Positions 2,815-49,800 of a DNA stretch of 49,800 nt are shown here, one piece after another. The notes under the pieces were generated by a model. The model did no database searches. It had not been told where the DNA came from and saw nothing but the letters and a program-made list of their open reading frames with translations. The position numbers and the translations under genes were made by a program. The stretch comes from a virus: IMG/VR virus record IMGVR_UViG_3300020172_002285, positions 1-49,800 of that record, one strand, 5' to 3'. Position 1 is the first letter of the stretch. Every line of letters starts with the position of its first letter.

Positions 2815-4155
2815 TTACGCCACTATTATCGAGATGGCCCCGCCAAGGATGTTCTTAGATCGGTAAACACGATAATTAGTTGTTTGACTAAAAGCATTCG
2901 TGACTGACACCAGACCATAAGACAAACTATTGGCTGTATTAGAAAAAAAGGCATCATCCACACTGCTTGCCATTGCCACGTTTAAGTTAGTAGCTGCGTC
3001 CTTAAAGGACACTGGAGAGCCAAATGATGTGGGAAAACAAAAGAACTTATAACCGCCTCCAGCGTATGCAAAAGTTCCACTAAAACCACTTGCCAACCCA
3101 CTATTCGTCAAGGCTTCAATCTGAGACTCAGTGAGAGTAGTGTTGGTGCTGGGTCCATAGTACCTTTGCCAGAACCATGAAACGGTAAATGTCGCCGAGA
3201 AATTCACCGCATTAGTATTGGTGCCTCGAATACTCCACTGATGAGTCGCCTGACTCGTCTTTTGAATGGCAGTAGGCAGAGCAATGGATTCCGTTCCGTC
3301 ATTCGCAGAACTTGTTGCCAAATCTACGTTATTTGTAACATCTCTAATCAATATCGTATTGGGACTTACGTTGCCAGAATTAGTTGTTCCCCATGTAAAG
3401 GTTTTAGTCCCTGAAATAGTGACACCAACTTCTACACTGGTAGATTGACCAGACATGACAAAAGAACTAAACGCAGGCGATTGATATGGGTACAAAAGTC
3501 TATCCCACATTTGCTGCATAGTTTGCAAACTAAATGTCGATCCAGATGTGATGCCACCAATTGTAGATGGTGTAGCCGACGCATTTGTATAAGAAACAGA
3601 TGCGTCACTACCCTGGAAGCCTTGATTGCCTTGGTATCCTTGAAGTCCATCTGCTCCTTGATAGCCTTGAAGTCCCGTTCCTGCTGCACCTTGATTGCCC
3701 TGGTATCCTTGAAGTCCATCTGCTCCTTGATAGCCTTGAAGTCCCGTTCCTGCTGCACCTTGATAGCCCTGGGTTCCATCAATACCAGCGAAGCCCTGGT
3801 AGCCTTGGCTTCCTTGATTGCCATCGACACCGGCAAAGCCTTGATAACCCTGTGGGCCTTGCCCGCCAACATCTCCCTGAAACCCTGCTCCTTGAACGCC
3901 TTGATAGCCTTGAAGTCCCGTTGGACCTTGTACTGTCGATCCTTCGCCTTGTGCGCCTTGCGGTCCAATTCGACCTTGTGCGCCTTGGCTACCAGGACTT
4001 CCATTTGATCCTTGGTGGCCTCGTGGTCCTGGATATGTTTGACCAATACGAGAAGAAACCACGAAGTCACGCATATCTTGTGCGTTGATTAGACCCTGAT
4101 TATTGTCAATAAACAGGGCTAACAATTCGGCTTCAGTTCTTATCGTATTTGGCAT
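2815..4155 (-). CDS. Collagen-like phage fibre protein with large C-terminal domain
   Basis: 446 residues. The N-terminus (TEAELLALFIDNNQGLINAQ) resembles the short leader of many phage fibre proteins. Residues ~40-185 are Gly-X-Gln/Gly-X-Y repeats, including a near-perfect in-frame duplication of a ~23-residue block containing GLQGYQGADG. Residues ~190-446 form a Ser/Thr-rich domain with beta-sandwich-like strands (GTKTFTWGTTN, QWSIRGTNTN), likely receptor-binding or decorative. It is first in order of transcription of the 1-4155 fibre group. The family is clear from the repeats; the receptor and the virion position are not visible. Confidence 0.85.
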   Translation of the reverse strand: MPNTIRTEAELLALFIDNNQGLINAQDMRDFVVSSRIGQTYPGPRGHQGSNGSPGSQGAQGRIGPQGAQGEGSTVQGPTGLQGYQGVQGAGFQGDVGGQGPQGYQGFAGVDGNQGSQGYQGFAGIDGTQGYQGAAGTGLQGYQGADGLQGYQGNQGAAGTGLQGYQGADGLQGYQGNQGFQGSDASVSYTNASATPSTIGGITSGSTFSLQTMQQMWDRLLYPYQSPAFSSFVMSGQSTSVEVGVTISGTKTFTWGTTNSGNVSPNTILIRDVTNNVDLATSSANDGTESIALPTAIQKTSQATHQWSIRGTNTNAVNFSATFTVSWFWQRYYGPSTNTTLTESQIEALTNSGLASGFSGTFAYAGGGYKFFCFPTSFGSPVSFKDAATNLNVAMASSVDDAFFSNTANSLSYGLVSVTNAFSQTTNYRVYRSKNILGGAISIIVA

Positions 4156-5161: not shown

Positions 5162-5165
5162 TGAG

Positions 5166-5541
5166 TGGAGCCGAGGGGAATTGAACCCCTGTCCGTCGAT
5201 AACAAAATTAAAGCCTCTACACGCTTGTCTCGTTGTTCGATTGTCAGGCTTTCAGGACCACTCCGAGCAAAGGTCCATAAGCCTTATCGACCTATTTTCT
5301 CGTCTTCAGGTAAGTCGCCCACCTTCAGACCAGCAAGATTTTACGGCTGACTTTTGAACGCTACTTGCGGCGCTTTCTCAGTCAGTGCCTAATTGCTTAG
5401 GCAGCGAGCGCTACCGGGGCAGCGCTCGGGAACTTAACAGTTTCGCCAGTTAAGGCTTGATCGACTTTTTAAGGAGCCTTTCGATCAACTCCTGCGTGCC
5501 ACTCTAACTTCATCCACCGCCGTCGAAACCGGGACGGCCCC
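5166..5541 (-). ncRNA. ssrA: Transfer-messenger RNA (tmRNA)
   Basis: The minus strand starts with GGGGCCG followed by a GGTTTCGACGG tmRNA signature, and ends with a T-arm (AGGGG-TTCAATT-CCCCT) and CGGCTCC plus A, which pairs with the 5' GGGGCCG. The internal tag reading frame ends GETVKFPSAAPVALAA then TAA (TAA at about 5397-5399), and the stop lies in the hairpin GCCTAA-GCAA-TTAGGC, as expected for tmRNA. The resume codon is probably the GGC or a codon next to it. CCA is not encoded (ACTC follows the acceptor stem), so the 3' end must be made by a CCA-adding enzyme. Its role is ribosome rescue and degradation tagging; SmpB is not seen in this window. Confidence 0.93.
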
Positions 5542-38044: not shown

Positions 38045-39102
38045 TGTACGACTTAGAAATACTCGTCCCGGCTGAAGGCCAGATGGTCCAAAGATTCGTG
38101 GACTTCAAAAGATGGGGCCTCAGAAACATAGGCGATTACAAAGTAAAACTCATTCTGGCTGCTGCCTGCGACAATGATGTGTCGGTATTTGAAAGTGGTT
38201 GGCCAGACGGTGTTGATGTTGAAATTGCTGTCACTCCGTACAAACACGTCGCCCAAAGAATTTATCACTACTACGATGCAATCGCCAAGCCAGATACGGC
38301 CAAGTGGTACTATCGCATTGACGAAGACACCATGAATGACATCGGTGGGCTAATGAATAACCTGGAGACGCACTTCGATCACGAAAGAGAATATCACATC
38401 ACGGGAGAACTCAATTGGGATGTTCAACCAGTTGAAAGATTCGTATTAGAAAAATTGGGCTTCAATCATTGGTATAAACATCCAGATGATACTCCACCGC
38501 ACGAATACGAAATGTCAATAACCAGCAATGCCGCTATGAAGAGAATCCTGAATGACGCCAATGCTCAAAAATATTTCAAACTAAGAAAAGAAATACCTGA
38601 AGGATATGGAGATCACGGATTGTGCTTCTGCGCACGCATGGTGAAAGTACACCCAACAACGGTGAAGTTTTTGACTGTTCGACCGGAGATTTGCAAATTC
38701 TCAGAATTCCACGGACACTTCAATCACATTCATTGGGTGGGCAGAGACAAAAATGCCTGCGTAATGAATTGGCTGGAATCTATGTCGCCTGAACATGAAG
38801 CTCCTTACAAGAATCTATCTTTTATTTCTTCATCCATAACAGACAACCACAAGAAATGGGTCATTATGAATCCCAACAATGTCGTTGAAGAAATATTCAT
38901 CCACAATAACCACAGAAACAGAATTGGCCTCTGGTCTGCAACCAATGAAGGCAAATTAACCGTTTACTTAGATGGCGACATGGCGCAAAATTATCCGCTG
39001 ATAGTGTTTGACGCTACCAGCGGACCAAATGATGTGATTACTTACAGTTGCCGACACCACCGGCTCAAGACCGGCCCGTTGTCGGAACTTATGGGCCTTT
39101 AG
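38044..39102 (+). CDS. Glycosyltransferase-like protein
   Basis: 352 residues. The GT-A-like motif WYYRIDEDTMNDIGG carries a D-x-D; GELNWDVQPVERFVL and YGDHGLCFCARMV follow, and the C-terminal third is beta-rich (GLWSATNEGKLTVYLDGD). It could be a fringe-type or other GT-A enzyme with a carbohydrate-binding tail. It overlaps the opposing recA end by 4 bases. Confidence 0.62.
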   Translation: MYDLEILVPAEGQMVQRFVDFKRWGLRNIGDYKVKLILAAACDNDVSVFESGWPDGVDVEIAVTPYKHVAQRIYHYYDAIAKPDTAKWYYRIDEDTMNDIGGLMNNLETHFDHEREYHITGELNWDVQPVERFVLEKLGFNHWYKHPDDTPPHEYEMSITSNAAMKRILNDANAQKYFKLRKEIPEGYGDHGLCFCARMVKVHPTTVKFLTVRPEICKFSEFHGHFNHIHWVGRDKNACVMNWLESMSPEHEAPYKNLSFISSSITDNHKKWVIMNPNNVVEEIFIHNNHRNRIGLWSATNEGKLTVYLDGDMAQNYPLIVFDATSGPNDVITYSCRHHRLKTGPLSELMGL

Positions 39103-40337
39103 CCTTCCAACTCTTCATCAATATCGTCATCATCGTCATCGCCGACACCGCTTAATTCAATGTCGGTATTGTCTTCAGGTCGGAAATTGATGGACTCTTG
39201 GAATGGCTCCAGGTAATCCTTGATCTGCTCCGCAGAAATTGCGTCGATCAAAGCCGGACACTGCATCAAGATTTCAGCAGGAAGGTCATTGCGTTCCATG
39301 CTGGCCTTGAACTTGACTTCAGACCCACCGGCCCAAGGCTCTTTCACCACAAAGTTTCCAGAGCCTTTGATCTCAATGCGTTCTGCGTCCAGCAAACAAC
39401 TTAGCAGACCGCTGAGTGGGTTGATGCCTTTATCGAACAACAACTGAATGTTCTCCGACTCGACAAAGGGCCGGTGAGTCTTGTTCTTTACATTCTTCAG
39501 CTTCACATTGATGCCGAGAATCTTTTTCTTCTTCGCTGTGATCTTCCTTTCGATCTTCATTTGCGTCCTGGTTTCAAGACGACAAGAAGCATAGAAGGGA
39601 AGTGCGTTACCGCCACCAGCCGTAGTCAACGCCTGCTGCCCCATAGGGGCGTAACCGCCGATCTTAGCACGAGTCTGGTTTAAGATGACAACGGTAGCGT
39701 TGTTCTTCTCCATCACGGTGTTCAGCTTGCGGAATTCACGGGAACAAATCTTGGCCCGTTCGCCCGGCTGTTCGTGACCACCAACAATACGCTTGAAGTC
39801 AGCAGCAGTATAACCTTCCGGCAATGCCACTTCCTTCAACTCACGCTCGGACGGAGAAACGCCGATTGAGTCGTAAACAATAACGATGGGAACTTCCATC
39901 GGAATCTTTTCACGAGCCTTCTCAATCACCTTGTACATCTTGGTGAATACTTGCTCAAGCGACTGTGGTGTATGACGCACAATACGCTTCAAGTTACAGT
40001 GAGAGGCTTGTTGAATGAACTCTTTGTTTGCAGAGTTCTCGCAGTCCATCAGAACCGCAATGCCCTTCGCTCGTTGTGTGCCGAACAATATGTTCGCACC
40101 CAACAACGACTTCGAGGACGAGTTGGGTCCATAGATTTCTGTCAGCTTACCACCAGGAATACCTCCCGTGATGAACTGCCCAGAACAAATGTAGTTGATA
40201 GCGAGTGAGCCAGTATCGACGAAATACCGAACAGAATCTATGGTATCCAAAACATCGCCGCCCGTTGATTCGGCTAGTGTCTCAAAAAAATCATCATCAA
40301 CTCCACCGCCCGCAACAGTAGCTTTCTTCTTTGCCAT
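39099..40337 (-). CDS. recA: RecA recombinase
   Basis: 412 residues from the ATG at 40337 with AGAGG upstream. Walker A GPNSSSKS near residue 70, then VLMDCENSANKEFIQQA, IVIVYDSIG, and VVILNQTRAKIGGYAPMGQQ with ALPFYASCRLETR, which is close to bacterial RecA, not T4 UvsX. The C-terminus is strongly acidic (DDDDDDIDEELEG), as in RecA. Works with the gp32-like SSB and Ski2-like helicase in recombination. A repeated element lies directly before the gene. Confidence 0.94.
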   Translation of the reverse strand: MAKKKATVAGGGVDDDFFETLAESTGGDVLDTIDSVRYFVDTGSLAINYICSGQFITGGIPGGKLTEIYGPNSSSKSLLGANILFGTQRAKGIAVLMDCENSANKEFIQQASHCNLKRIVRHTPQSLEQVFTKMYKVIEKAREKIPMEVPIVIVYDSIGVSPSERELKEVALPEGYTAADFKRIVGGHEQPGERAKICSREFRKLNTVMEKNNATVVILNQTRAKIGGYAPMGQQALTTAGGGNALPFYASCRLETRTQMKIERKITAKKKKILGINVKLKNVKNKTHRPFVESENIQLLFDKGINPLSGLLSCLLDAERIEIKGSGNFVVKEPWAGGSEVKFKASMERNDLPAEILMQCPALIDAISAEQIKDYLEPFQESINFRPEDNTDIELSGVGDDDDDDIDEELEG

Positions 40338-40358
40338 TTTTAACCTCTTATAAAAGGA

Positions 40359-40379
40359 ACGACAGGTCAATCCTATCGT
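40359..40379 (-). terminator. Repeated hairpin before recA (H1)
   Basis: On the minus strand: ACGATAGG-ATTGA-CCTGTCGT, 8 bp with one U-G pair, then TCCTTTTATAAG. The stem covaries with the hairpins at 40860, 40981 and 41104. Being between a short array and recA, it may act as a terminator, attenuator or processing site. Confidence 0.6.
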
Positions 40380-40421
40380 ACACCACAGTACATCACAACA
40401 CAAAAGATAACATTACAACAC
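40377..40421 (-). repeat. Pentamer array A1, (GTNNN)9
   Basis: Nine contiguous 5-base units; on the minus strand each begins GT, except one CT. It starts right after the stop of the upstream gene and runs into the hairpin before recA. Confidence 0.75.
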
Positions 40422-40422
40422 G

Positions 40423-40842
40423 CTATTCTTTTTTTGTGCCAAATAAATATCTGCCGAACATTTCACGTTTCTTTTTGTTGGACAAAGCACCAGGAACATT
40501 GTTGGCGAATCGAAAACACCTGACCCTGTTTATTTCGCATAGCTTCCATTTGCACTTGTCTCTTCTTATTTGCTTTGGATCGTTAAAGTGGTGTGCGCCA
40601 CCGGGTTCAAATATAGCAACTATTTTATGGTCAAGATAGACCACAATATCTGCTGATCCGAATTTCCATATACTCTGAAGCCCACCTTTGCCCGGATCAG
40701 GAAAAATATCCTTCAGTGGCACTTCAAGGTGAACATCAAATTTAGGCCATGTTTTCTTGATGTATGCTTTCACCGCCTTGGCGGTTTCTGTAATGAGCTT
40801 GTTCTCTTCAGCCAGATCGTATATTTGGTCAAGATCATCCAT
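40423..40842 (-). CDS. PD-(D/E)XK nuclease-like protein
   Basis: 139 residues. The Vsr/DUF2726-like core is visible: FGSADIVVYLDHKIVAIFEPGG, AHHFNDPKQIRRDKCKWKL, RVRCFRF. Acidic residues and the final R-D pair fit a small restriction-type nuclease fold. AT-rich by eye. It lies between pentamer arrays A1 and A2, with hairpin H2 directly before its start. Confidence 0.65.
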   Translation of the reverse strand: MDDLDQIYDLAEENKLITETAKAVKAYIKKTWPKFDVHLEVPLKDIFPDPGKGGLQSIWKFGSADIVVYLDHKIVAIFEPGGAHHFNDPKQIRRDKCKWKLCEINRVRCFRFANNVPGALSNKKKREMFGRYLFGTKKE

Positions 40843-40859
40843 TTGCGAATCCTAAAAAC

Positions 40860-40879
40860 AACAGGTAAAGCCTGTTATG
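40860..40879 (-). terminator. Repeated hairpin before nuclease gene (H2)
   Basis: Minus strand: ATAACAGG-CTTTA-CCTGTTGT, 8 bp with one U-G pair, then TTTTTA. It is the same stem type and loop length as H1, H3 and H4. Confidence 0.6.
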
Positions 40880-40880
40880 C

Positions 40881-40930
40881 AAAACAATACATCACAGCAC
40901 ATGACATCACATGACAGTACGCCACGGCAC
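40881..40930 (-). repeat. Pentamer array A2, (GTNNN)10
   Basis: Ten contiguous 5-base units, all beginning GT on the minus strand and NNNAC on the plus strand. It starts five bases after minihelix 1. Confidence 0.8.
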
Positions 40931-40935
40931 AATAA

Positions 40936-40976
40936 ATGACCGGCAGGAGTCGAACCCACCTACGACCATCAGTCAT
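40936..40976 (-). ncRNA. tRNA-like minihelix 1 (acceptor + T-arm)
   Basis: Read 5'-3' on the minus strand: ATGACTG, a 10-base connector, GTGGG-TTCGACT-CCTGC, CGGTCAT. The two outer segments pair over 7 bp and the T-stem over 5 bp with wobble. The total is 41 nt, with no room for D or anticodon arms. No CCA is encoded. Confidence 0.65.
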
Positions 40977-40980
40977 AAAA

Positions 40981-41001
40981 ACAACAGATCAAGTCTGTTG
41001 T
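40981..41001 (-). terminator. Repeated hairpin before minihelix 1 (H3)
   Basis: Minus strand: ACAACAGA-CTTGA-TCTGTTGT, 8 bp, then TTTTTA. The last pair is A-U, where the other copies have G-C: compensatory change that supports an RNA stem. Confidence 0.65.
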
Positions 41002-41003
41002 GC

Positions 41004-41053
41004 AATACAACACATGACAAGCCACGACAACACACAACATCACACAACATCAC
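41004..41053 (-). repeat. Pentamer array A3, (GTNNN)10
   Basis: Ten units; nine begin GT and one GG on the minus strand. It is set between minihelix 2 and hairpin H3. Confidence 0.78.
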
Positions 41054-41058
41054 ATCAA

Positions 41059-41098
41059 AAGCCGATCAGGGATCGAACCTGATTACGCCAACCGGCTT
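41059..41098 (-). ncRNA. tRNA-like minihelix 2
   Basis: Minus strand: AAGCCGG, 9-base connector, TCAGG-TTCGATC-CCTGA, TCGGCTT. Acceptor and T-stem pair fully (one G-U), 40 nt in total. Array A3 follows six bases after it. Confidence 0.68.
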
Positions 41099-41103
41099 AT
41101 AAA

Positions 41104-41124
41104 ACAACAGGTCAAACCTGTTGT
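41104..41124 (-). terminator. Repeated hairpin before minihelix 2 (H4)
   Basis: Minus strand: ACAACAGG-TTTGA-CCTGTTGT, 8 bp, then TTTTATAAG. TATAAG also follows H1. Confidence 0.65.
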
Positions 41125-41126
41125 GC

Positions 41127-41171
41127 AAGACAGGACATAACACCACGCCACATGACATCACGTCACAGAAC
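41127..41171 (-). repeat. Pentamer array A4, (GTNNN)9
   Basis: Nine units, all beginning GT on the minus strand. Located between minihelix 3 and hairpin H4. Confidence 0.8.
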
Positions 41172-41177
41172 ATGAAA

Positions 41178-41217
41178 ACGGCCTGCGGGACTTGAACCCG
41201 CAGGTCTTCCAGTAGCC
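41178..41217 (-). ncRNA. tRNA-like minihelix 3
   Basis: Minus strand: ACGGCT stem pairing with GGCCGT across GCGGG-TTCAAGT-CCCGC, with a 7-bp extended T-stem (CTGCGGG/CCCGCAG). It begins inside the stop codon of the upstream gene (TAACGG). It fits the class but less perfectly than 1 and 2. Confidence 0.6.
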
Positions 41218-41218
41218 G

Positions 41219-41764
41219 TTATTGAACTTCAAACTCAACCAATTTGAATCGCCCGAACTTCGGCTTATAACTGCCGATGCCCTTGGCAATACCAGCTTCT
41301 TCGATAAGTGCTTTGAGTGTATTTTCATCAATACGAGACTCATCAAAGTTGATCGTAAAAGTCAACTTCCACTTGTCGAATCTGATTCGACTGGTCAACA
41401 CACTGTTTTTGGTGCTTGGGTGAGTAGTCCAGCGTTGATCTAGTTTGTCATAATCCTTACGACCTTTACGACCAAGCGGAACCATTTCTTCTCCACAGAA
41501 CACTGCTGCCAATACAGTGTTCTTCAAATTGCCTCGACCGGCCTTGAGATTCTTGCCTGCTTCTCTAAGAACGCCCTCGATCATGTCTGATGGAACATAG
41601 TATCCGATCTTTTCATCGAAATACGATTTCTTTTCAGCGTCGGCAGTATGGTCCATCGGTTGGCCCTTCTTTTTGACTTTTGGAGCCGCCCCTTCTTCTT
41701 CCATAGGACGACGATTCATAAGCAGAGACGCAACGCCTTGAATAGTTACACTTGCAGTTTTCAT
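41219..41764 (-). CDS. Unknown protein
   Basis: 181 residues from the ATG at 41764 with AAAGGA upstream. It begins MKTASVTIQGVASLLMNRRPM and ends GSYKPKFGRFKLVEFEV, a pattern I associate, without certainty, with a phage family of RAMP/Cas7-like fold. The middle is Lys-rich. It is preceded by array A5 and a hairpin and followed by minihelix 3. Function unknown. Confidence 0.7.
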   Translation of the reverse strand: MKTASVTIQGVASLLMNRRPMEEEGAAPKVKKKGQPMDHTADAEKKSYFDEKIGYYVPSDMIEGVLREAGKNLKAGRGNLKNTVLAAVFCGEEMVPLGRKGRKDYDKLDQRWTTHPSTKNSVLTSRIRFDKWKLTFTINFDESRIDENTLKALIEEAGIAKGIGSYKPKFGRFKLVEFEVQ

Positions 41765-41780
41765 GAATTTTCCTTTCAAA

Positions 41781-41799
41781 TAACTACGGATTATCTCCG
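41781..41799 (-). terminator. Repeated hairpin before 41219-41764 gene (H5)
   Basis: Minus strand: CTGCGGA-GATAA-TCCGTAG, 7 bp with a G-U pair. Loop length and position match H1-H4, but the stem sequence differs. Confidence 0.5.
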
Positions 41800-41800
41800 C

Positions 41801-41845
41801 AGTACAATACGCCACAAAACATCAGATGAGATGACATCACATAAC
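41801..41845 (-). repeat. Pentamer array A5, (GTNNN)9
   Basis: Nine units; seven begin GT and two CT on the minus strand. It lies between the SSB terminator and hairpin H5. Confidence 0.72.
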
Positions 41846-41859
41846 GTCATTGAGAAAAA

Positions 41860-41888
41860 ACGAGCATGGAGAATTTCTCCATGCTCGT
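41860..41888 (-). terminator. Intrinsic terminator of ssb
   Basis: A 12-bp stem ACGAGCATGGAG / CTCCATGCTCGT with loop AATTT, then TTTTTTC on the minus strand. It ends the SSB transcript. Confidence 0.93.
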
Positions 41889-41898
41889 TCGTGGAAGG

Positions 41899-42894
41899 TT
41901 ACATACCTTCGAGTTCTTTCATGAAATCGTCGTCAGCGAGAATCTCTTCTCCGCTCTTGCCTTCAGAAGCGGCAGGAGTGCTGCTGACAGTCAATTCCTC
42001 ACGAACCGACTCCGATGCAGTCGAAGGCGATGAAGCCGTGTGACCAGCATTGCGGAATTCGTTCAGGTCGTCGTCTTGAGCTTCGCCCTCTTTGACCATG
42101 CCCAAGTGGACACGGAGAGCGTGCTTCAATTCATCTTCGGTCTTGATGGCCCGAAGCGCCTGAAGATCGTTAAGGTTTTCAATCCAGTTAGACAGTTCGT
42201 CAGGTGAACCAGCAGGCGTTACTTCTTCAAACTTCGAGTTATCGTAGTTTGGATATTCAGCACCGCCACCGCCCTTGACCACTTTCTTGACTACTCGGAA
42301 GTCCCGACCAGTCATTGGGTGAGTGATGTCGCCCAGACCCTTTTCGCCTGCACTCTCGTCACCGACGATTGCTCGGCAAATCTTGGCGTGAACCGTCTTG
42401 CCGCAAGAGTAAATCTTGGGTCCGACGTTCTTCTTGACTTCACCCGTCTTGAAGTCTTTCTCAGAGCGAACGATTACGTTGTAGTAATATCGTTCAACCG
42501 GCTTGATGGCCCGTGCCTGATTCTGCAAGTCTTCTTGGGCCTTGCCACTCAGGGATTCAGACTTCTGCCACAGATCGCCGTAATACTTGCAGATGATGCA
42601 GTCGCCCTGCCAACGAGGGCCTTTCTCAGTCTGCACAAGAACCTTCGGGCAGTGATAGGTTCTCTTCTTCTTGGTAGTGGGGTTGGAAAGCGTGTGAACA
42701 CGGGTTGCACAATAATGCTTGCCGCCCTTTTTGCGGGGCAGGATACGCATGATTGTATATCCGTCACGTTCCGGGAGTCGCACGAATTTTTCGAGGAAAT
42801 CGTCGCCGCCGAAAGAACCCGGCTCGGCATTGACTCGCTCATATTCGTGTTGCATCTCCGATAGATCAAGTCCTTCATATTCAGTGTTAGCCAC
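41899..42894 (-). CDS. T4 gp32-like single-stranded DNA binding protein
   Basis: 331 residues from the GTG at 42894, which has AAGGAG six bases upstream; the ATG at 42912 has none. The zinc-binding region RTYHCPKVLVQTEKG then GDCIICKYY matches the gp32 core. An acidic C-terminal tail (EEILADDDFMKELEGM) is typical of SSBs. It coats ssDNA during phage replication and recombination. The upstream +1 frame ends at TAA overlapping its ribosome binding site. Confidence 0.85.
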   Translation of the reverse strand: MANTEYEGLDLSEMQHEYERVNAEPGSFGGDDFLEKFVRLPERDGYTIMRILPRKKGGKHYCATRVHTLSNPTTKKKRTYHCPKVLVQTEKGPRWQGDCIICKYYGDLWQKSESLSGKAQEDLQNQARAIKPVERYYYNVIVRSEKDFKTGEVKKNVGPKIYSCGKTVHAKICRAIVGDESAGEKGLGDITHPMTGRDFRVVKKVVKGGGGAEYPNYDNSKFEEVTPAGSPDELSNWIENLNDLQALRAIKTEDELKHALRVHLGMVKEGEAQDDDLNEFRNAGHTASSPSTASESVREELTVSSTPAASEGKSGEEILADDDFMKELEGM

Positions 42895-42904
42895 AGTTAG
42901 CTCC

Positions 42905-43022
42905 TTAGTCATTTTGATAGTGCTGAACGTCTTGGATAGTCACAGTAACAGTCGTCGGCGTTCGTTGAGTGATGTTGTAAGCTATATCGGCGGGAGACTC
43001 AATAGCTTTAGTTGTTTTTTTA
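42905..43022 (-). other. +1-frame coding-like extension of coiled-coil gene
   Basis: After the TAA at 43020-43022 the +1 frame continues for 38 codons (KKTTKAIESPADIAYNITQ, then TVTVTIQDVQHYQND) to a TAA at 42905-42907 that overlaps the SSB ribosome binding site. No start codon exists in this frame. It suggests a frameshifted tail, a sequence error or an unusual start. Confidence 0.55.
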
Positions 43023-49639: not shown

Positions 49640-49800
49640 ATGAAAATCAACAACCAAAAAGAACTGATTGCAGCAGTTCATTCAATTTTAGAATTTCTCA
49701 ATACAGAACCGGCTACTACAGAACCGGCTACTACAGAACCGGCTACTACAGAACCGGCTACTACAGAACCGGCTACTACAGAACCGGCTACTACAGAACC
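49640..49800 (+). CDS. Protein with TEPAT tandem repeats, 3' part off window
   Basis: AAGGAG lies before the ATG. The first 21 residues (MKINNQKELIAAVHSILEFL) are helical; after them T-E-P-A-T repeats run off the window (at least six 15-base copies from 49703). Threonine/proline repeats are common in O-glycosylated or extended linker regions. No family recognised. Confidence 0.75.
   Translation, partial: MKINNQKELIAAVHSILEFLNTEPATTEPATTEPATTEPATTEPATTEPATTE
49703..49800 (+). repeat. 15-base tandem repeat (ACAGAACCGGCTACT)
   Basis: Six complete, identical copies and part of a seventh, in frame, run to the window edge. They code TEPAT. Identical copies suggest recent expansion. Confidence 0.95.

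Follow-up and report, generated by a model that had tools for sequence, protein, structure and literature searches.

A probable phage-borne VIPR cassette between ssb and uvsX, with a guide array that matches uvsX of related phages

Some phages encode an interference system called VIPR (Viral Interference Programmable Repeat). As set out in the main text of a 2026 preprint (PMC13142463), a phage RAMP protein works with guide RNAs made of GGY/NN pentamers, which are read against the target with one base skipped. Each guide RNA (vrRNA) contains about 9-16 pentamers, in which a fixed triplet alternates with a hypervariable NN pair, and ends in a structured 3' tail, a pseudoknot in the case of SUSP1. 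Substitution of the NN bases retargets the SUSP1 complex. According to the same text, the system acts by repression, and its targets are satellites and prophages at unlinked loci.

Phages also interfere with one another through endonucleases. The free-standing enzymes of T4 cut the gene beside which they are encoded (SegA cuts uvsX, SegF gene 56 and SegG gene 32), leading to marker exclusion of a relative's alleles (PMC2988022). In phage PhiPA3, interference with a co-infecting phage comes from an intron endonuclease (PMC11620839).

The DNA analysed here, which we call the window, is a stretch of 49,800 nucleotides from a virus (IMG/VR record IMGVR_UViG_3300020172_002285). It encodes a tmRNA (5163-5541; Rfam E=2e-49) with the tag GETVKFPSAAPVALAA. 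Long 9-nt-based repeats of the collagen-like Gly-X-Y type lie within large ORFs at 1-1779 and 3620-3914. At the contig's very end (49702-49800) stands a perfect 15-bp tandem repeat (TACAGAACCGGCTAC, 6.6 copies), possibly an assembly edge.

A sequence-only reading of the window had drawn attention to five intergenic tracts of pentamers, written as GTNNN, in which the 5-nt phase itself seemed to be selected. It compared them to the binding site of TRAP in the trp leader, where about 11 RNA triplets stand at 5-nt spacing, and offered DNA iterons as the alternative. We conclude that the tracts are very probably the vrRNAs of a phage-borne VIPR system and neither TRAP targets nor iterons. On the same strong but sequence-based footing, which applies to this explanation as a whole, we take positions 40349-41893 to be a complete VIPR cassette, lodged in a tailed phage with gene 32 (ssb) on one side and uvsX on the other.

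The five tracts are where the sequence-only reading placed them, on the minus strand (Table 1). Of their 47 units, 44 begin with G and 3 with C, and 46 have T in second place; positions 3-4 vary. The GT phase therefore stands, but the fifth base is not the free N that had been supposed: it is a pyrimidine in 46 of 47 units (T 41, C 5). The true unit is thus YGT/NN, three fixed bases followed by two variable ones, and each of the five arrays contains 8-10 of them. The last units of arrays 1 and 5 (GTACG and GTACT) are part of the tail, so the guides of these two arrays are 8 units long. In 200 dinucleotide-preserving shuffles of the whole window, a tract with at least 7/9 in-phase GT arose once in total, against five in the real sequence; selection of the phase is upheld in outline. 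It had also been suggested that loss of the phase in close relatives, with the flanks kept, would count against selection. This comparison is inapplicable because relatives with 92-95% identity lack the block 40349-41893 altogether, arrays included.

Table 1. Features of the cassette and its flanks in the window
Feature	Positions	Strand	Basis or remark
uvsX (P0001), flanking core gene	39099..40337	-	Pfam RecA E=2e-31; PHROG UvsX-like E=9.8e-51
Own uvsX site equivalent to array-1 target, VRYFVDTG	40207..40232	-	14/16 match
Tail hairpin, vrRNA 1	40358..40381	-	covariation
vrRNA array 1	40377..40421	-	guide = first 8 units; match to uvsX of related phages
Candidate vap (P0002), 139 aa, predicted restriction-endonuclease-fold nuclease	40423..40842	-	AF2 + Foldseek
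Tail hairpin, vrRNA 2	40857..40880	-	covariation
vrRNA array 2, 10 units	40881..40930	-	unit phasing
tRNA-like element 1 (TLS1), acceptor + T-arm, no anticodon arm, just 5' of array 2	40937..40975	-	
Tail hairpin, vrRNA 3	40980..41003	-	covariation
vrRNA array 3, 10 units, one imperfect	41004..41053	-	unit phasing
tRNA-like element 2 (TLS2), just 5' of array 3	41059..41098	-	
Tail hairpin, vrRNA 4	41103..41126	-	covariation
vrRNA array 4, 9 units	41127..41171	-	unit phasing
tRNA-like element 3 (TLS3), between vipr stop codon and array 4	41177..41220	-	sub-threshold Rfam mascRNA-menRNA match
vipr (P0003), 181 aa, RAMP/Cas7-like	41219..41764	-	SUSP1 Vipr homology; RAMP-fold model
Tail hairpin, vrRNA 5	41782..41805	-	covariation
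vrRNA array 5, 8 guide units + tail unit	41801..41845	-	7 consecutive NN units in common with L090 array
gp32-like single-strand binding protein ssb (P0004), other flank	41899..42912	-	Pfam gp32 E=3.4e-10

What reads these arrays? The proposal of an oligomerising RNA-binding protein encoded by the phage seems right in outline, and the evidence points to a RAMP/Cas7-like Vipr, the product of P0003, whose gene lies between arrays 5 and 4. The sequence-only reading had overlooked this gene and the tRNA-like elements. P0003 is 25% identical to the Vipr of SUSP1, which has been studied by experiment (E=1e-15; E=1.6e-21 by HHalign profile comparison), and matches phrog_4652 (E=6.8e-23). The best Foldseek matches of its AF2 model (pLDDT 89.1) in the PDB are Csm3/Cas7-type subunits (E=4.2e-6, prob 1.00). 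Vipr proteins are small RAMP homologs with a single RRM and a G-loop; P0003 resembles them in its size, its RAMP fold and its conserved G-loop-like motif GIGSYKPKFGRF. Neither P0003 nor P0002 belongs to a Pfam family; there is no PADLOC match for P0002, P0003 or P0005 and no CRISPR-Cas repeat-spacer array in the block.

A single-protein search of IMG/VR with P0003 returned no match. With two sequences as the query, IMG/VR yielded 4 loci and GTDB contigs yielded none. Scanned without bias for (GTNNN)8, IMG/VR gave 120 loci. Many of them contain clusters of arrays, and the fixed letters vary (GTCNN, GTTNN, GTNNG and others); iterated profile searches starting from P0003 placed a P0003 homolog in 37 of these 120. 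Further homologs adjoin similar tracts in Felixounavirus, Vibrio, Mycobacterium, Gordonia and Pseudomonas phage records. The fixed triplet varies by lineage: at 44 Vipr loci we read GGT, TGT, GAC, CAC, AAC, GTT, GTC, CGT, GCA, GGC and ACA, in a list of automatically called arrays that includes some A-rich false positives. This variation suggests co-evolution with the RNA-binding surface of Vipr.

Between ssb and uvsX, the block 40349-41893 contains three tRNA-like elements and two protein genes besides the five arrays; all of these, and both flanking genes, lie on the minus strand. In the direction of transcription the order is ssb, array 5 and its hairpin, P0003, TLS3, array 4 and its hairpin, TLS2, array 3 and its hairpin, TLS1, array 2 and its hairpin, P0002, array 1 and its hairpin, and uvsX. 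The whole 1.5 kb is missing from relatives whose flanks are 92-95% identical at the DNA level (L008-L013). In the closest of these, ssb is followed by a terminator and then directly by uvsX; the alignment ends at 40348 and restarts at 41894. Absence of the element from an intact site is what a homing element would leave in its relatives. No arrays were found near uvsX in any of 80 relatives, which had been collected through uvsX itself. A vipr gene occurs in one of 50 full related contigs (G021; L045/L216), truncated and without arrays. The region concerned (L216:3501-4435, in the contig of L045) looks like a decayed VIPR locus: vipr breaks off after about 95 residues and is fused to other sequence, the dCMP deaminase gene is retained, and arrays and vap are lost.

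Decoding of array 1 gives the clearest target. Read with one skipped base, its positions 3-4 spell GTnAAnTAnTTnGTnGAnACnGGn, in the codon phase V-K/N-Y-F-V-D-T-G. This is the N-terminus of uvsX (VKYFVDTG) in related phages, matched at 16/16 in 49 of 80 and at 15/16 in another 22; unit 9 matches incompletely and is assigned to the tail. Because all uvsX relatives are homologous here, the 49 matches represent one conserved site rather than 49 independent ones. The weight of the match comes instead from its skip specificity, its controls and its location. Sixteen of 16 is reached at skip 1 only, skips 0, 2 and 3 giving 13-14. None of 250 guides from other VIPR loci and none of 150 letter-shuffled guides reaches 16, and the best of these 400 scores 15. 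Array 1 alone shows targets of the published kind, in competing elements, with a 1-nt skip phased to the codon wobble position. Since vrRNA 1 and the uvsX mRNA are of the same sense, the two cannot pair, and the target must be DNA. The sequences suggest that vrRNA 1 is aimed at uvsX of related, competing phages and that the cassette behaves as an RNA-guided element of homing or exclusion would.

Judged by sequence matching alone, the guide would recognise the allele of element-free phages and spare the phage's own allele, VRYFVDTG. The three nearest relatives (L008-L010) also have VRYFVDTG and lack the cassette. The resistant allele is therefore not strictly linked to it.

Do the other guides behave in the same way? 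When arrays 2-5 were decoded against 50 full related contigs, there was either no match or a single one with 3 mismatches, and 8-unit scans of IMG/VR gave 4-10 matches each, about the number expected by chance. These searches left arrays 2-4 with no target and array 5 with one weak candidate, a GNAT-like gene of L230 (11897-11919, YDQHEFGIT) that the guide matches completely, a match not significant alone. Array 5 and an array of a diverged VIPR system (L090:9405-9454) have seven consecutive NN units in common (GA CA CA GA TT GG AT), and the candidate gains somewhat from this likeness.

A further pattern links arrays to the genes beside them. In L090 an array lies just upstream of a dCMP deaminase gene, to which its guide is antisense. 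The guide matches the dCMP deaminases of three related phages at 18/20, with mismatches at different places in the three, and its own at 14/20; a reversed-pattern control gave 0 matches. Two arrays of L217 each match, in frame, the ORF that directly follows, at 20/30 and 21/28, and BLAST found no phage homologs of the two small ORFs. Permutation tests in codon frame 0 gave P = 0.0013 for array 1 and uvsX, 0.028 for L090_5 and dCMP deaminase, and 0.0007 and 0.0003 for the L217 pairs; nearly all remaining array-gene pairs were unremarkable. In this subclade, four arrays in three contigs thus match the gene that comes directly after them. Targeting of the adjacent gene is not a general feature of VIPR, because 111 arrays of Vipr loci, compared with their own locus, showed no excess at skip 1.

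The same three contigs have a second gene in common. P0002, encoded between arrays 2 and 1, gives an AF2 model (pLDDT 82.7) that Foldseek matches to BstEII (E=1.6e-4) and TnsA (E=2.8e-3). Its homologs were found only beside vipr, in the window, in L090/L214 and in L217, with E40, D65, E79, H85 and D95 invariant. We regard P0002 as a candidate nuclease vap, the accessory gene of VIPR, which is known in classes vap1-6, because it accompanies this Vipr subclade and its model has a restriction-endonuclease fold; genes of its type adjoin vipr in three contigs. In the subclade with this nuclease-like vap, a guide located next to gene X seems to be directed against the X of other phages, the phage's own X having diverged.

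How might such a cassette act? By extension from SUSP1, Vipr subunits would align along the YGT triplets, and the NN pairs would each read double-stranded DNA with one base skipped. During co-infection the complex would repress uvsX of VIPR-less relatives, or cut it with the nuclease-like P0002. Repair from the VIPR+ genome could then copy the cassette and its resistant flank, as happens with the protein endonucleases SegA, SegF and SegG of T4. We tentatively propose that the cassette of this subclade may be an RNA-guided homing and marker-exclusion element, placed beside a core gene and carrying a guide against that gene in VIPR-less relatives. The predicted vap nuclease would break the allele, repair would spread cassette and flank, and tRNA-like elements would punctuate the arrays for processing. 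We give this proposal clearly less than an even chance.

A VIPR system with no role in mobility is about as probable, likewise below an even chance. On this reading vrRNA 1 only represses the uvsX of rivals, and its place beside uvsX is a coincidence of landing. Such a system would resemble published VIPR, which in the preprint's main text represses its targets, satellites and prophages at unlinked loci (PMC13142463), and the nuclease activity of P0002 is predicted from its fold only. Against coincidence stand the four arrays in three contigs that match the gene immediately downstream, and the presence of a nuclease-like vap in exactly these contigs.

We consider it improbable that the system acts in cis, with vrRNA 1 regulating the phage's own uvsX and not that of rivals. 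Array 1 does stand immediately 5' of uvsX, and 14 of the 16 positions still match at the own site. However, both mismatches fall in a single unit, unit 2 (AA to CG), whereas 49 relatives match perfectly, and the L090 guide, too, is a closer fit to foreign dCMP deaminases than to that of its own phage.

A hairpin follows each array, as had been noticed in the sequence, and the hairpin tails covary. In 13 arrays from three phages (three contigs), 99% of cells are paired and 4 of 8 pairs show double changes; none of 500 shuffles equalled the paired cells and covariation score. A structured 3' tail thus follows the repeat tract, as in VIPR. Hairpins, some of them terminator-like by consensus scan, would also suit a TRAP-like target, where a regulator in the form of a ring would occupy 9-11 RNA triplets spaced 5 nt apart and govern termination in the flanking operon, with the NN bases uninformative. 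The 5-nt period and the layout of three fixed and two variable bases are likewise common to TRAP sites. We nevertheless find the analogy very hard to sustain. The triplet is YGT, not (G/U)AG. The proteins of the block include no recognisable TRAP homolog, and a Cas7-like RAMP gene lies between the arrays. The NN positions carry a message and are not mere spacers, since those of array 1 match uvsX at 16/16 under the 1-nt-skip rule, and arrays of the same kind adjoin Vipr genes in dozens of unrelated contigs. DNA iterons, or some other double-stranded binding array for replication or partition, can be set aside almost entirely: 5 bp is half a helical turn and clusters of direct repeats are typical of iterons, but the compensatory changes in the tails and the decodable NN content indicate an RNA guide, the arrays share a strand with vipr and vap, and iterons predict neither the match of array 1 to uvsX under the 1-nt-skip code nor the adjoining Vipr gene.

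The tRNA-like elements are built from an acceptor stem of 5-7 bp, a short linker, in most cases with TGG in it, and a T-arm whose loop reads TTCRA. They are not called by ARAGORN, and their Rfam matches are sub-threshold only. Elements of this kind also precede arrays, immediately on the 5' side, in L130 (1085-1778; five copies, AAC/NN code) and in L211 (1651-3142; Gordonia phage MakoManhole; three copies, GGC/NN code). At L210 ~2860-2925, a tRNA-like element 5' of an array is seen only by a relaxed reading. Stem pairs covary across three lineages, with 96% paired and 0/500 shuffles equalling this, in an imperfect alignment of seven elements. We infer that these elements are processing signals for host RNase P and RNase Z, whose cuts would release single vrRNAs.

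Two features may go beyond the main text of the VIPR preprint, the YGT/NN code and the tRNA-like elements 5' of arrays, although its supplements may already contain both. What appears to be new is that guides match foreign homologs of the gene adjacent to the array, uvsX here and dCMP deaminase in L090. The locus provides an independent, sequence-only confirmation of the gapped VIPR code, in another lineage and with a different fixed triplet, its target having been found by decoding alone. If guides prove to lie systematically beside a resistant copy of their target gene, VIPR would join RNA-guided interference with homing and marker exclusion.

How does the cassette compare with known systems? 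Of those described, VIPR (SUSP1/P. fulva type II; PMC13142463, main text) is the closest. Both have a Vipr RAMP gene, a small accessory gene, intergenic pentamers of three fixed and two variable bases, a structured 3' tail and 1-nt-skip decoding with the skipped bases at codon wobble positions, and both are phage-borne and directed against competing elements. They differ in the fixed triplet, YGT here and GGY there, although the preprint allows 'a related consensus'. Three arrays here have tRNA-like elements at their 5' side, whereas the preprint's main text describes hammerhead-interspersed and staggered arrays. The vap of our cassette is a predicted restriction-fold protein, and the guide matches foreign homologs of an adjacent gene. 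With SegA, SegF and SegG of T4 (PMC2988022) the cassette shares an intergenic place beside a conserved gene (uvsX for SegA, gene 32 for SegG), the aim at that gene in element-free relatives, and an own allele that differs at the site. Each T4 element, however, is one site-specific GIY-YIG protein, whereas our cassette would recognise its target through an RNA guide and encodes a predicted nuclease.

The Class 1 CRISPR backbone (Csm3/Cas7) has the same RAMP fold and also has guide positions that periodically do not pair. Unlike it, our locus has no CRISPR repeats or other cas genes, its period is 5 nt rather than 6, and two of every five bases specify the target. It differs from the TRAP-trp leader in that no TRAP homolog is present and the spacers carry target information. 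In engineered polycistronic tRNA-gRNA arrays and in mascRNA-type elements, a tRNA-like fold stands immediately 5' of a guide RNA. The elements described here would be the natural counterpart of the engineered arrays, minimal in form, with no anticodon arm, and acting in processing as we infer.
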